Source: Trichococcus shcherbakoviae
GTDB taxonomy: Bacteria; Bacillota; Bacilli; Lactobacillales; Aerococcaceae
NCBI RefSeq assembly: GCF_963666195.1
Contig: NZ_OY762653.1
Coordinates: forward strand, 744,001 to 808,000
Reading direction: 5' to 3'
DNA length: 64,000 nt
Position numbers and translations under genes: made by a program
In this document: in pieces, positions 1,531 to 58,290 of the stretch
How positions within the stretch are numbered: position 1 is the first letter of the stretch
How the letters are laid out: each line of letters starts with the position of its first letter
Notes under the pieces: model-generated
Told to the model about the DNA's origin: nothing
What the model saw: the letters and a program-made list of their open reading frames with translations, nothing else
Databases searched by the model: none

Positions 1531-1657
1531 CTCCGATTAGGCCCCTTTCATCGGAGTTCACCGGTAACTTTCGGCTTCTCCTCCGGCGAAGCCTCGCTCA
1601 TCGGAGGAGGCAACTCTAAATGTTAGTCCAACTCCGGCGAGGCCTCCGTCCCCGGAG
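1531..1657. repeat. Hairpin array, family B (CTCCGG...CCGGAG), copy 1
   Basis: Three degenerate units begin at 1531, 1581 and 1632, a pitch of 50-51 bp. Each has a 6-7 bp stem of the CTCCGG/CCGGAG type around a 12-15 base loop, then a less conserved spacer of about 25 bases. The array lies in the 300-base gap between the leuA promoter and the terminator of the ABC binding-protein gene. The short ORF that crosses it is judged spurious. A second array of the same family lies at 37519-37645. Confidence 0.7.
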
Positions 1658-1683
1658 CAGAGCGATATAATCTCAGGCAGTAC

Positions 1684-1730
1684 ACTAAAAACGAGGTTGC
1701 CGCACTTTTAGTGGGGGCAGCCTCGTTTTT
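1684..1730 (-). terminator. Terminator of ABC binding-protein gene
   Basis: Arms AACGAGG.TGCC and GGCA.CCTCGTT flank a central loop, with T runs on both sides. It lies just past the stop codon at 1741 and would end transcription on the minus strand. Confidence 0.85.
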
Positions 1731-1740
1731 GATGGATAAC

Positions 1741-2748
1741 TTATTCCGGTAATTTGATGCTGTCTGGATCGATTCCCAGTGCTTCAGCCATCTCTTCATT
1801 TATGACCAATTGCAGTGTCTCAGGGAATTGGACAGGCAATTCGGAAGGAAGCTTGCCTTCTTCCAGAATCTGCAAAGCCATTTCGCCTGTCTGGCGGCCT
1901 AATTCCTTGAAGTCGATGCCGTAAGTCGCGAGACCGCCAGCTTCAACCATTTCTGTTGCGCCAGGAATGACCGGGATTTTTGCTTCCATAGCGATTTGGC
2001 CGACAGTGGCCATCGTGCTGGATAAGGTGTTGTCCGTTGGGATGTAGATCGCATCGACTTTTTGGACCAATGACTCCATCACTTGTTGGACGTCATTGGT
2101 AGAGGTAACAGTCATGATTTCGACATTCACGCCTGCTGCTTCCAACAAGGCTTTCGCTTGATCGCTCTGTACAATGGAATTCATCTCGCTGGAGTTGAAG
2201 ATGATACCGACTGTTTCCGCACTAGGTACGATCGACAACAACAATTCGATCTGTTTGTCCATCGGTGCTTGGTCGCTTGTTCCGGTGATGTTCGCGCCTG
2301 GTTCTTCTGCACTTGCTACAAGCCCAGCATCGATCGGATCGGTTACGGCGGTGAACAGGACTGCATTTTCTTTTTCAGCGTTCGCTATTGCTTGTGAAGC
2401 TGGTGTCGAGATCCCTAAAATGAGGTCGTTGCTGCCGGCTAAACGCTCTGCCATACTCTGCAGATTGGCTTGGTCACCCTGAGCATTTTGGTAATCCACA
2501 ATCAGATTGTCGCCTTCAACATAACCGGCTTCCTCCAAAACTTCCAAGAAACCTGCGCGTGCTGCTGATAAGGATTCGTGTTCAAGGATCTGCAGGATTC
2601 CGATACGCACAGCATCCGCTGATACTGTTGAGCTTGCTGCGGAAGAATCCGTCGCTTCTTCTGTACCGCCGGCGCATGCACCGAGCAGCAAAGCAGAAGT
2701 CAGTGCCAATGTTGTCGCTACTTTCTTTTTCCAATCCATTCCAATCAT
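1741..2748 (-). CDS. ABC transporter substrate-binding lipoprotein (ABC_sub_bind/TrpX family)
   Basis: This 335-residue secreted lipoprotein has a basic N-terminus, a hydrophobic stretch and the lipobox LLGAC (Cys about 24), followed by an acidic and Ser/Thr-rich linker. The body (VRIGILQILEHESLSAARAGF ... LTSTSTPASQAIAN-like, then AVTDPIDAGLV) matches the periplasmic-binding-like family PF04392, whose members feed ABC importers; some are proposed to carry tryptophan or other aromatic compounds. No permease or ATPase gene is adjacent, so the partner must be elsewhere. The ATG at 2748 has AGGGGG eight bases upstream; an in-frame ATG three codons later is possible. Expression seems controlled by a leader ORF and terminator directly upstream. 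The ligand cannot be told from sequence. Confidence 0.85.
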   Translation of the reverse strand: MIGMDWKKKVATTLALTSALLLGACAGGTEEATDSSAASSTVSADAVRIGILQILEHESLSAARAGFLEVLEEAGYVEGDNLIVDYQNAQGDQANLQSMAERLAGSNDLILGISTPASQAIANAEKENAVLFTAVTDPIDAGLVASAEEPGANITGTSDQAPMDKQIELLLSIVPSAETVGIIFNSSEMNSIVQSDQAKALLEAAGVNVEIMTVTSTNDVQQVMESLVQKVDAIYIPTDNTLSSTMATVGQIAMEAKIPVIPGATEMVEAGGLATYGIDFKELGRQTGEMALQILEEGKLPSELPVQFPETLQLVINEEMAEALGIDPDSIKLPE

Positions 2749-2815
2749 TTCATTTCCCCCTATTTTTTGATTTGTGCGAGAACTGCTTAGGCAATCAATC
2801 GCTAGTCCCTAGTAC

Positions 2816-55201: not shown

Positions 55202-55209
55202 GTATTTGA

Positions 55210-56619
55210 CTATTCCAAATCTTCGCCATTGCTGGCGATGGCTTTTTGGTACCAGTAGAAGGAATCCTTCTTCAGACGGTCCAAGCTGCCTGAACCGTCG
55301 TTGTTGCGGTCCACGTAGATGTAGCCGTAGCGTTTCGCCATCTCGCCCGTACCGGCTGAAACCAAGTCGATACAGCCCCAAGAGGTGTAGGCGACAAGAT
55401 CGACGCCGTCCAGCACGATCGCATCACGCATCGCTTTGACGTGGTCACGAAGGTAGGAGATGCGGTAATCATCATGGATTTGGCCATCGACGATTTCATC
55501 CACAGCACCCAATCCGTTTTCGACAACCATCAGCGGCAGTTGGTAACGGGAGTGGAACGTGTTCAAAGCGACGCGCAGACCCAACGGATCGACTTGCCAG
55601 CCCCATTCCGATTCCGCCAAGTACGGGTTCTTCTCGCCCATCAAAGCATTGCCTTCACCCGGCACGCCGGATTGTGCAAAGCTGGCTGCGCTGGAAGCAT
55701 AGTAGCTGAAGGAAATGAAATCGACCGTATGTGCAGCCAAGATTTCCTCGTCGCCTTGTTCGAACGTAACGTTGATGCCTTTAGTGGCGAAGTAAGCCAG
55801 TTTGCTCGGCGGATAATACCCGCGGGCATGGACATCTGAGAAGAACAGTTTTTCTTCTTCTTTTCGTTGCGCTGACCAAACGTCTTCCGGTTTTGCCGAC
55901 AACGGATAGACCGGCGCATAGGCGATCATGCAGCCGATGCGGTTGTCGGGATCGATTGCCCGCGCAGCCTTCGTCGCCAAAGCGCTGGCGACAAATTGGT
56001 GATGCAAGGCTTGATACATGATTTCTTCCTGGCTTTCGCCCGCTTCGGCTTTCGAACCGATCGAAATCTGCGGCAGGAACGTCGCCATGTTGATTTCGTT
56101 GAAGGTCAGCCAATAGTTGACTTTCCCTTGATAGCGTTCAAACAATGTTGTCGCATATCTTTCAAAGAAGCCGATCAGCTTGCGGTTTTTCCAGCCGCCG
56201 TAGTGGTCGACCAGATATTGCGGCATTTCGAAATGCGAGATCGTCACCAATGGTTCGATGCCATATTTCGCCAATTCATCGAAGACGTCATCGTAAAAGG
56301 CCAAGCCGGCTTCGTTCGGTTCCAATTCATCACCATTCGGAAAAATCCGCGTCCAGGCGATCGACATCCGGAACATCCGGAAGCCCATTTCTGCGAACAA
56401 GGCGATATCTTCCTTGTAGCGGTTGTAGAAATCGATACCGATGTGCGAAGGGTAGTAGTCGCCGACTCCGGCGAAGCGCTCAGCGAAGTCGCGCGAGCAG
56501 GTCAGTTGGTCGATGACCGACGGACCTTTCCCATCAGCGTCCCAACCTCCTTCAAATTGATTGGCGGCTGTAGCGCCGCCCCAGAAGAAACCTTCCGGAA
56601 ATCCTTTACCTGCTGACAT
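55210..56619 (-). CDS. 6-phospho-beta-glucosidase, GH1
   Basis: 469 residues. [20 protein letters not shown] is the GH1 N-terminus, [10 protein letters not shown] holds the acid/base Glu and [12 protein letters not shown] the nucleophile Glu. [14 protein letters not shown] near the end contains the Lys and Tyr that bind the 6-phosphate in 6-phospho-glycosidases. It cleaves PTS-imported phospho-beta-glucosides in the cytoplasm. It follows the second GH1 gene by about eleven bases. Confidence 0.93.
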
Positions 56620-56630
56620 GACAATTCCTC

Positions 56631-58049
56631 CTATTTCTGTACCAAAGATGCGCCGTTTGTTGCGATGACTTCTTTGTACCAGTTGAATGATTTTTTCTTG
56701 TAACGGTTCAAAGTACCGGATCCGTCATCGTGGCGGTCGACATAAATGAAGCCATAGCGTTTTTTCAATTCTGCAGTCGATGCGCTGACCAAGTCGATGC
56801 ATCCCCACGTCGTGTAGCCCATCACTTCGACACCGTCCGCAATGGCTTCGGCAACTTGCACCAAGTGATCGTTCAAATAGTTGATGCGATAATCATCGTT
56901 GACGGTCGGTTGGCCATCCTCACCGGTCACCAGCTGATCGACTGCACCCAAACCGTTTTCGACGATGAACAATGGTTTTTGGTAACGATCCCAGAAGTCG
57001 TTCAAGACGATGCGCAGGCCCTTGGGATCAATCTGCCAGCCCCACTCGGAAGCCTCCAGATAAGGATTCATCACCCCGCCGAGGATATTCCCTGCCCCTT
57101 TCACTTTCTTGGACTCGTCTGCTGTTTGTGTCGAACTCATGTAGTAGCTGAAGGAAACGAAATCGACAGTGTTCTTCAGGATTTCTTCATCTTCAGGAGT
57201 GATGTTCAGCTCGATGCCGTGCTCACGGAAATAGCGCTTCATGTAACCAGGATACGTGCCGCGAACATGCACATCCGAGAAGAAGAAGTTTTGGCGATCC
57301 GCTTCCATAACCGCGATGATATCATCAGGATGGGAAGTCAACGGATACGTCGGCATTGCGATGACCATGCAGCCGATTTTGAAGTCCGGGTTGATTTCGT
57401 GGCCGATTTTTGTCGCCAAAGCGCTGGCTACCAATTCGTGGTGGCAAGCTTGGTACAGATCGGATTTCGACAATTTTTCAGGAACTGTCGCGATTCCGCC
57501 GCTCATGAATGGCGCGTGGATGATCGAGTTGATTTCATTGAACGTCAACCAGTATTTGACTTTGTCTTTGTAGCGCGTGAAGACCGTGCGCACATAATTT
57601 TCGTAGAAACCGATCATTTTGCGGTTAACCCAGCCATCGTATTCGCGGGCAAGGTGCAGCGGTGTTTCGTAGTGGGACAAAGTGATCAGCGGCTCGATGC
57701 CGTATTTTGCCAATTCATCGAACAGGTCATCGTAGAACTGCAAGCCAGCTTCGTTCGGCTCCGTTTCGTCGCCGTTCGGGAAGATGCGTGTCCATGCGAT
57801 GGAAGTACGGTATGTTTTGAAGCCCATTTCCGCGAACAAGGCGATATCTTCTTTATAACGGTGGTAGAAGTCGATCCCTTCCAATTTCATGTTGTCCGGT
57901 GTAGGACCATCCGTGATCGGCCCAAATCCGCCTTGAGGGGTTACGTCCTGAACGGAAAGCCCCTTTCCGTCAACATTATAAGCACCTTCGTATTGGTTGG
58001 CGGCTGTTGCGCCACCCCATAAAAATCCTTTTGGAAATACAGTTTGCAT
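56631..58049 (-). CDS. 6-phospho-beta-glucosidase, GH1 (second copy)
   Basis: 472 residues. [31 protein letters not shown] (acid/base), [15 protein letters not shown] (nucleophile) and [15 protein letters not shown] (phosphate site) are complete. It resembles the neighbour at 55210 in length and motifs, consistent with an old tandem duplication with divergence; differing specificities are likely. Large open frames on the opposite strand (for example 56730-58022) are shadows. Confidence 0.93.
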
Positions 58050-58171
58050 GTGATCGCTCCTATTCTTTATTCTGGTTCTATTTTATGCACGGGTCTGACT
58101 CATTGCGTGACAGTCCCGAATTATGAAAAATCATCCCAAATGGGTTCGGGCGCCTGAGACCACAAACCAAA

Positions 58172-58290
58172 TTCCCGAATATCTGGTTATTATTCGGGAA
58201 GCTGGCTTGCGGTCTAGGTTTTTTCCCCGGATATCTGGTTTTTATCCGGAAATATTTCTTGCGGTTGAATTGATTTCCCGAATATCTTTT
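58172..58290. repeat. Hairpin array, family D (TTCCCGAAT...ATTCGGGAA)
   Basis: Units centred on ATATCTGG occur at 58179, 58231 and (as ATATCT) 58282, pitch 52 and 51 bp. The best unit has a 9-bp stem TTCCCGAAT/ATTCGGGAA around an 11-base loop, the same 9-11-9 layout as family A. The second has compensating changes (CCGGAT/ATCCGG). A CCCGAA...TTCGGG hairpin precedes at about 58114-58150. The array lies between the PTS gene and the GH1 gene within the operon. Confidence 0.75.

Follow-up and report, generated by a model that had tools for sequence, protein, structure and literature searches.

Intergenic dyad arrays of Trichococcus and a second genus with repeat lengths near whole helical turns

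The window analysed here, 64,000 nucleotides at positions 744,001–808,000 of the 2.93-Mb single-contig genome of Trichococcus shcherbakoviae (handle G000), contains six intergenic arrays in which short dyad-symmetric units of four families (A to D) are repeated in tandem every 49–52 bp. Repeat length is near-constant over differing sequences, falling mostly at three, four or five helical turns in a second genus of the same family (g11), a pattern suggesting that some component of the cell senses helix face. We propose, at a probability of roughly 45%, that the arrays are helix-phased platforms of double-stranded dyads that sit where genes end and may serve a DNA-wrapping protein, gyrase being one possibility. 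It is a tentative further proposal that they make up a new class, helically quantised dyad arrays, in which the helix face is selected, dyad sequences are freely replaced and whole turns are kept. The usual explanation for intergenic repeats in bacteria is a mobile sequence. In these arrays it is the sequence that seems exchangeable and the period far less so, a pattern seen in two genera and probably in a third. If the proposal is correct, bacteria would have in these arrays an equivalent of phased nucleosome-positioning DNA, one that marks the ends of genes for a protein that wraps DNA. They provide a direct genetic handle on whether the cell reads the helical phase of intergenic repeats, and also bear on whether Gram-positive gene-end supercoiling is handled at dedicated sites.

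Arrays of the window and their period in the genome

All six arrays described in an earlier reading made from the letters alone (the sequence-only reading) are present, and the period near 50–52 bp reported there stands, with spacings of 49–52 bp. Several of the individual spacings were in error (the 1531 array is spaced 50 and 51 bp, not 52/52/52), and the corrected coordinates are as follows.

1531–1657: family B, dyads at 1531–1556, 1581–1606 and 1632–1657, unit spacing 50 and 51 bp
8761–8945: family A, units at 8761, 8813, 8865 and 8917, spacing 52/52/52 bp, at a convergent junction
37519–37645: family B, three dyads, units at 37519, 37570 and 37619, spacing 51 and 49 bp
42101–42293: family C, four 52-bp units at 42101, 42153, 42205 and 42257, spacing 52/52/52 bp
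54941–55124: family A, four dyads, units at 54941, 54993, 55044 and 55096, spacing 52/51/52 bp
58172–58300: family D, two and a half units at 58172, 58224 and 58275, spacing 52/51 bp by eye

The family A unit consists of TTGTCCGAT, 11 bases, ATCGGACAA and then 23 bases. Four such dyads (TTGTCCGAT-11-ATCGGACAA) make up the 8761 array, the fourth with a single arm mismatch, and the 54941 array begins with a degenerate dyad one unit earlier than the start previously given. The family B unit is a CTCCGGYGAR dyad of 26 or 27 bp, these lengths being found in 42 of 66 loose matches; the D array is built of 9-11-9 dyads. The earlier statement that no array interrupts a gene holds with the caveat that the 54941 unit overlaps the final codons of pdxT, and the incomplete third unit of the D array extends to the 3' end of the gene at 58293–60251.

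Periods in the rest of the genome were obtained with Tandem Repeats Finder (TRF) from a 664-kb sample (the window and 30 stretches, with 8 kb counted twice but masked). Outside long open reading frames (ORFs) the periods were 51 bp in three arrays, 52 bp in 15, and 22, 24, 66, 123 and 173 bp in one each; inside ORFs a period of 52 bp was found four times, with others of 21–27, 96 and 189 bp. Within the window TRF alone detects just the A and C arrays. Distances between hairpin centres, a measure free of sequence similarity, peaked at 50–52 bp (17 pairs) and 104 bp (7 pairs) over 464 kb outside long ORFs, on a background of about one pair per bin. A 43-bp signal in these distances was rejected as an artefact of a run of masked N in one stretch (L021).

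Adjacent family A units were searched genome-wide with a pattern allowing 10–40 free bases, that is, spacings of 37–67 bp. The pattern returned 91 pairs, of which 87 were spaced exactly 52 bp, three 51 bp and one 59 bp, and the reversed control returned none. A loose adjacent-unit pattern for family B matched 116 places forward and 3 in the reversed control, and the spacing was 49–52 bp in 85 of the 100 places listed out of the 116. Family C has a period of 52 bp and family E (L015:12916) one of 51 bp. Genome-wide scatter of periods far from 52 bp, named beforehand as the outcome that would speak against a common period, was thus not observed in the sampled and searched genome. A dense cluster of B dyads, several at the off-phase spacing of 37–39 bp, lies at 2,439,963–2,450,894, outside the sampled stretches.

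Quantised repeat length and drifting sequence

In G021, a genome of genus g11, TRF reported 62 arrays of period 20–250 bp outside long ORFs in 620 kb: six of 31 bp, 12 of 40, 29 of 41, three of 42, one of 52, one of 102, two of 28 and eight of 20–23 bp, the last including two that are really 43-bp arrays and one that is a 42-bp array, since the smallest TRF period had been kept. Four arrays of period 41 were found in 140 kb of G080 (genus g32). Ten other genera, one of them from another family (440 kb in total), yielded periods of 35, 64 (three arrays), 65 (two arrays) and 119 bp, the 64/65-bp arrays being CRISPR-like by eye.

Arrays in the 25–60 bp range were grouped into families by alignment, with a threshold set on reversed units; an earlier grouping by shared 7-mers had chained nearly all of them together. 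The 27 resulting families comprise 23 from G021, three from Trichococcus and one from G080. Among the 23 mutually non-aligning families of G021, 21 have periods of 31, 40–42 or 52 bp and two of 28 bp. For all 27 families of the three genera the mean cosine at 10.3 bp was 0.857, a value reached by none of 20,000 uniform draws, with the reservation that the families may be non-independent through unrecognised common descent within a genome. Excluded by the length range were the eight arrays of 20–23 bp and the one of 102 bp in G021 and those of 22, 24, 66, 123 and 173 bp in Trichococcus. Arrays in long ORFs were also excluded, except four 52-bp Trichococcus arrays in ORFs judged spurious. Families B and D, which TRF did not report, and a 43-bp family of G021 fell outside the test.

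The loops and spacers of family A are specific to each array. Between arrays the spacers show a faint consensus only (8.0 of 21 positions identical vs 6.5 when shuffled), as judged on 34 spacers chosen at length 25 from 32 arrays, two of which gave two each, a sample uninformative on length. In 70 adjacent pairs, A spacers carried 352 substitutions and 4 length differences, and the corresponding loops 169 substitutions and 1 length difference. Reference intergenic DNA compared between G000 and a second genome of the species (G041) contains 29 gaps per 399 substitutions, a rate at which about 38 length differences would be expected over the 521 substitutions in loops and spacers, vs the 5 found. 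At the 42101 junction, a B array present in six species kept its 50.5/50.0 bp spacing in five of them at 0.23 substitutions per site. Of the mechanisms offered in the sequence-only reading, helical phasing near five turns gains support from this conservation of length while loop and spacer sequences drift, and is extended by the second genus (31, 40–42 and 52 bp; three, four and five turns).

A duplication mechanism could itself measure whole turns, if an enzyme or synapse seated on one helix face copied three to five turns around any palindrome; the arrays would then be neutral or selfish. Non-aligning sequences with common quantised periods would be expected from such a process, as would A spacers that are array-specific and weakly alike between arrays, and unit number does vary inside species (family A was found in 12 of 13 Trichococcus genomes, with 0 to 140 exact units per genome). 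We nevertheless regard this explanation as unlikely: length outlasts sequence after formation, the A stems being nearly invariant while the spacers drift; B arrays have three dyads in six of six comparisons; and no candidate enzyme was found, G021 and G080 being without Y1 transposases. A recombinase generating the arrays, which had also been suggested, did not emerge from the analysis. Differences in unit number can be put down to slippage or recombination: of nine arrays compared between G000 and G041, the six B arrays were equal, one A array was equal and the A arrays at the other two of three junctions differ by exactly three units. It does not account for whole turns, because slippage copies an existing period.

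Common descent would require neither a measuring enzyme nor any present ruler, the families of a genus deriving from one ancestral array whose sequence diverged while its period was copied. Alignment of base tables showed a TCCG core common to A and B at a similar distance from the dyad centre, with W three bases outside, so that the earlier description of four unrelated stem sequences was too strong for these two families. The 9-11-9 layout is common to A and D, and several G021 families have arm distances near 17–18 and 23–24. Descent alone is improbable as the source of the period, in that length differences are rarer than expected and periods of 31, 41 and 52 bp occur together in G021, which would therefore require the period to change by one full turn at a time.

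Islands of the G021 genome hold successive small arrays that belong to different families, often beside the motif GTAAGYRRGAARTRA; intergenic islands of different-dyad arrays with this 15-bp motif between the arrays lie at L147:12500–14600 and L173:18300–19700. Of 57 arrays, 25 have the motif nearby, with every pairing of orientations represented. Over the whole genome it matches exactly 83 times forward and 75 times in reverse, and it is often a dyad itself. A mobile element of the miniature inverted-repeat type, bounded by terminal inverted repeats, was considered and rejected, since Trichococcus arrays are without common terminal sequences and the G021 motif does not form clean ends; no shared flank was found around 21 A and 19 B arrays of Trichococcus except T-rich words. 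Outside long ORFs, G021 L143:16101–18868 holds a tandem array of 43-bp units, about 64 in number, with an ACTTCT..AGAAGT dyad.

Double-stranded dyads, hairpins and REP elements

Units in tandem arrays reached a best circular dyad score of at least 8 in 41% of cases, vs 1% of shuffles. Sampled B arrays contain three dyads (17 of 19) or four (2 of 19), and A arrays two to seven units. The loop of the A unit is 11 bases long in 138 of 143 units with loops of 3–23 allowed, and it ends in T..T or A..A in 76 of 86, so the A unit has polarity. At position 1 of the A stem the combinations TA, TT and AA were counted 77, 36 and 19 times, and 12 of the 13 departures at position 6 change one side only. 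In 159 distinct B units across species (orthologues included), stem positions 1–5 carry 61 one-sided changes and one double change. Position 7 is C-A in 48 units, C-G in 42, T-G in 29 and T-A in 21, its pairing being no higher than expected for independent Y and R. Because the stem changes are mostly one-sided, the sequences favour a reading of the dyads as double-stranded sites rather than hairpins.

Action as hairpins, whether as RNA stem-loops (terminators, mRNA ends or sponges) or as cruciforms, would draw on several observations. Six units folded as single strands gave z of -3.8 to -4.7, and arrays adjoin terminator-like hairpins. All three outer pairs are present in 9 of 32 B units vs 2.9 expected (4 of 25 vs 1.9 for 27-mers). 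Covariation in 32 B units was 0.209 vs 0.177 shuffled (17 of 500 as high), and paired cells amounted to 77.2% vs 74.4% (12 of 500 as high), both of them levels that related sequences can reach without structure. The hairpins of the sequence-only reading are nonetheless weakened, and hairpin action is quite improbable: C-A is the commonest combination at B position 7 in addition to the one-sided changes, A loop ends avoid pairing, and a hairpin needs neither a fixed 11-base loop nor a 23-base spacer. By eye, the 42101 array has a terminator-like hairpin on one side and a promoter-like sequence on the other. No Rfam family matched at the window arrays. A test of the RNA strand by asymmetry of G-U vs A-C was set aside, as orientation is unassigned and both classes balance by construction.

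As short extragenic palindromes at high copy, the arrays resemble repetitive extragenic palindromic (REP) sequences and bacterial interspersed mosaic elements (BIMEs), which are spread by REP-associated tyrosine (RAYT, Y1) transposases. They are intergenic, palindromic, abundant and clustered, and Y1_Tnp matches were found in 12 of 13 Trichococcus genomes. The likeness to BIME-2, as far as described in the excerpted text of PMC2817692, extends to palindromes at gene ends between genes, clustering, regularity within a BIME and variable copy number. The arrays differ in being direct near-whole-turn units of several sequences per genome, tandemly repeated rather than alternating. GTAG and CGTC, the tags that define the REP stem foot (PMC3733652, in excerpt), were not enriched within 10 bp outside the foot: GTAG and CGTC were counted 9 and 2 times in 86 A units (reversed, 6 and 10), 0 and 5 times in 57 B units (reversed, 4 and 3), and 8 and 7 times in 57 consensus units of G021 and G080 (reversed, 16 and 8). 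According to the same excerpt of PMC2817692, modified REPs keep complementary changes, whereas stem changes here are mostly one-sided, and inter-REP segments of Stenotrophomonas vary in length between clusters. TRF applied to 300 kb of Escherichia coli K-12 yielded nothing beyond one tRNA cluster and one repeat of 21 bp. Membership in this system fails because G021 and G080 have arrays and no Y1_Tnp match, as does T. ilyis (G008; 15 A units), and we consider spread by RAYT transposases very improbable.

Gene ends, a candidate binder and neighbouring features

Exact A dyads number 112 in G000, and the sampled arrays lie between genes. By rough ORF calls, A arrays are at 10 convergent, 10 tandem, 0 divergent and 1 untyped junctions and B arrays at 6 convergent, 8 tandem, 3 divergent and 2 untyped, against a background of 61 convergent, 194 tandem and 68 divergent intergenic spacers of at least 60 bp. 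Three convergent junctions of the window are firm (8761, 37519 and 54958, the last being the array now placed from 54941); that of the 1531 array is convergent only via an 84-residue ORF.

The strict B pattern was found in 13 of 13 Trichococcus genomes and in none of the family's 63 other genomes. Junctions were compared across the genus with the following genes as anchors or neighbours.

40533–42020, plus strand: threonine synthase gene, anchoring the 42101 junction
42402–42845, plus strand: DUF188 (YaiI/YqxD) gene, downstream of the C array
54379–54951, plus strand: pdxT (SNO glutamine amidotransferase), used as anchor in comparing the junction between species

The 42101 array is flanked by a terminator-like hairpin 3' of threonine synthase on one side and the DUF188 gene on the other. 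The junction was readable in 11 of 12 genus genomes (L033 being the exception) and holds a four-unit C array in three, a three-unit C array in one, a three-dyad B array in six and no array in T. palustris. The pdxT junction, compared in 12 genomes, holds an A array in nine (unit counts by eye ranging from about two to seven or more), a B array in two, and none seen in one. At the 37519 junction, which lies convergently between HMG-CoA reductase and HMG-CoA synthase genes, orthologous B arrays are present in T. flocculiformis (one dyad cut), T. pasteurii, K1Tr and T. ilyis and absent from G001 and T. palustris. The 8761 array is absent from T. pasteurii and T. ilyis, the sole two relatives covered.

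The quantised periods, free sequence and fixed length would jointly follow if the repeats are required to face one side of the helix. In the proposed mechanism, dyad-symmetric sites at whole helical turns (about five in Trichococcus; mostly three, four or five in g11) would all present the same face to a putative binder, which we infer to be a wrapping or helix-face-aligning protein. The likeliest candidate is DNA gyrase or another wrapping protein. Gyrase acting at the arrays would relax positive supercoils that accumulate at convergent or terminal junctions; each 127-bp B array of three dyads would correspond to a single wrapping unit, A arrays may grow and shrink by recombination, and selection would remove off-phase arrays so that the period persists. 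The platform is what is claimed, and gyrase is the leading guess, named on account of the GC rhythm of close to 10 bp seen in B arrays (three dyads, about 127 bp). In the averaged and symmetrised GC profile of 19 B arrays this was the strongest rhythm, with 4 of 5000 column shuffles as strong and minima near 5, 15, 25, 36, 46, 56, 66 and 76 bp from the centre, and in 32 B arrays of relatives, partly orthologues, the peak was at 9.5–10 bp. In excerpts of PMC6379681 the E. coli gyrase motif is described as symmetric, 130 bp long and with a 10.75-bp GC rhythm, and gyrase is described as cutting BIME-2 in vivo. The B arrays approach that motif in length and helical GC rhythm; they differ in that the motif is degenerate and without dyad repeats, and A and G021 units lack a clean rhythm. 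Intrinsic bending as a general cause was rejected, the unit spectra having no common harmonic.

A number of observations weigh against the platform reading. The rhythm of B arrays is at about 10 bp and not at 10.75 bp, further minima lie at 12 and 39 bp, and the symmetry of the profile is imposed by averaging, with the conserved dyad arms contributing to the rhythm. GC peaks of the A unit at 8.7 and 6.5 bp exceed that at 10.4 bp, the 41-bp units of G021 are ambiguous (harmonic 6 above harmonic 4) and its 31-bp units are without rhythm. With regard to period, the remaining spacings among the 100 listed B places are 37–39 bp (seven), 42–46 bp (four), 57–61 bp (three) and 78 bp (one), the arms of family C depart from the 20/32 geometry, and off-phase arrays exist in G021 at 28 bp (two families) and 43 bp. 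With regard to length, aligned A spacers have 11 gap openings, a ratio of 0.031 vs 0.073 and hence a depletion of two- to threefold only. A arrays compared between G000 and G041 have 6 gaps per 39 substitutions (0.154), above the intergenic ratio, in a count that takes gaps without inspection and may include unit-number changes, and the flank downstream of the 42101 B array is likewise without gaps. As for the dyads, covariation does occur in family B at positions 6 and 8 and at the base just outside the arm, with z about 4 when all species are pooled and 1.8, 2.4 and 1.3 in G000 alone. Scrambled B hexamers gave 21, 14, 58 and 14 loose matches vs 66 for B; as one control reaches 58, only the 26/27-bp length peak and the tandem spacing mark B in that comparison.

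Iterons and partition-site arrays are protein-binding repeats phased to the helix; the arrays here differ in being chromosomal and dispersed at tens of gene ends, with many families per genome. Bacterial minisatellites (variable-number tandem repeats) are likewise tandem, intergenic and variable in unit number within a species; unlike them, the present arrays have a quantised period over non-aligning sequences and dyads far beyond shuffles. CRISPR loci share the regular tandem layout and have unrelated spacers, whereas spacers here are alike within an array. Among the open-access matches listed, no title or abstract opening describes these arrays, which does not by itself establish their absence from print. 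A CRISPR-like array of period 66 with about 34 copies lies at 830,279–832,559 of G000 (L028:279–2559). The best DnaA match in the genome is at 1,647,734, and of 32 A arrays a single one is further than 1150 kb from it, where 6.8 would be expected, a post hoc comparison.

The D array lies between a phosphotransferase system (PTS) EII gene and a GH1 gene (minus strand). Because its loops are largely kept across the six genomes read, it is possibly different in kind, a regulatory element. It adjoins a GGGTTCGGGCGCC stretch (window 58050–58170) upstream of the GH1 gene, conserved in the same six genomes, which is perhaps an antiterminator-type leader. The adjacent genes at 55210–56619 and 56631–58049, the second being the GH1 gene, cross-match each other's orthologues at about 65% DNA identity and are an apparent tandem duplication. 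A RAGATH-18 RNA (Rfam RF03064, 62.1 bits) lies between genes at window positions 44698–44763.

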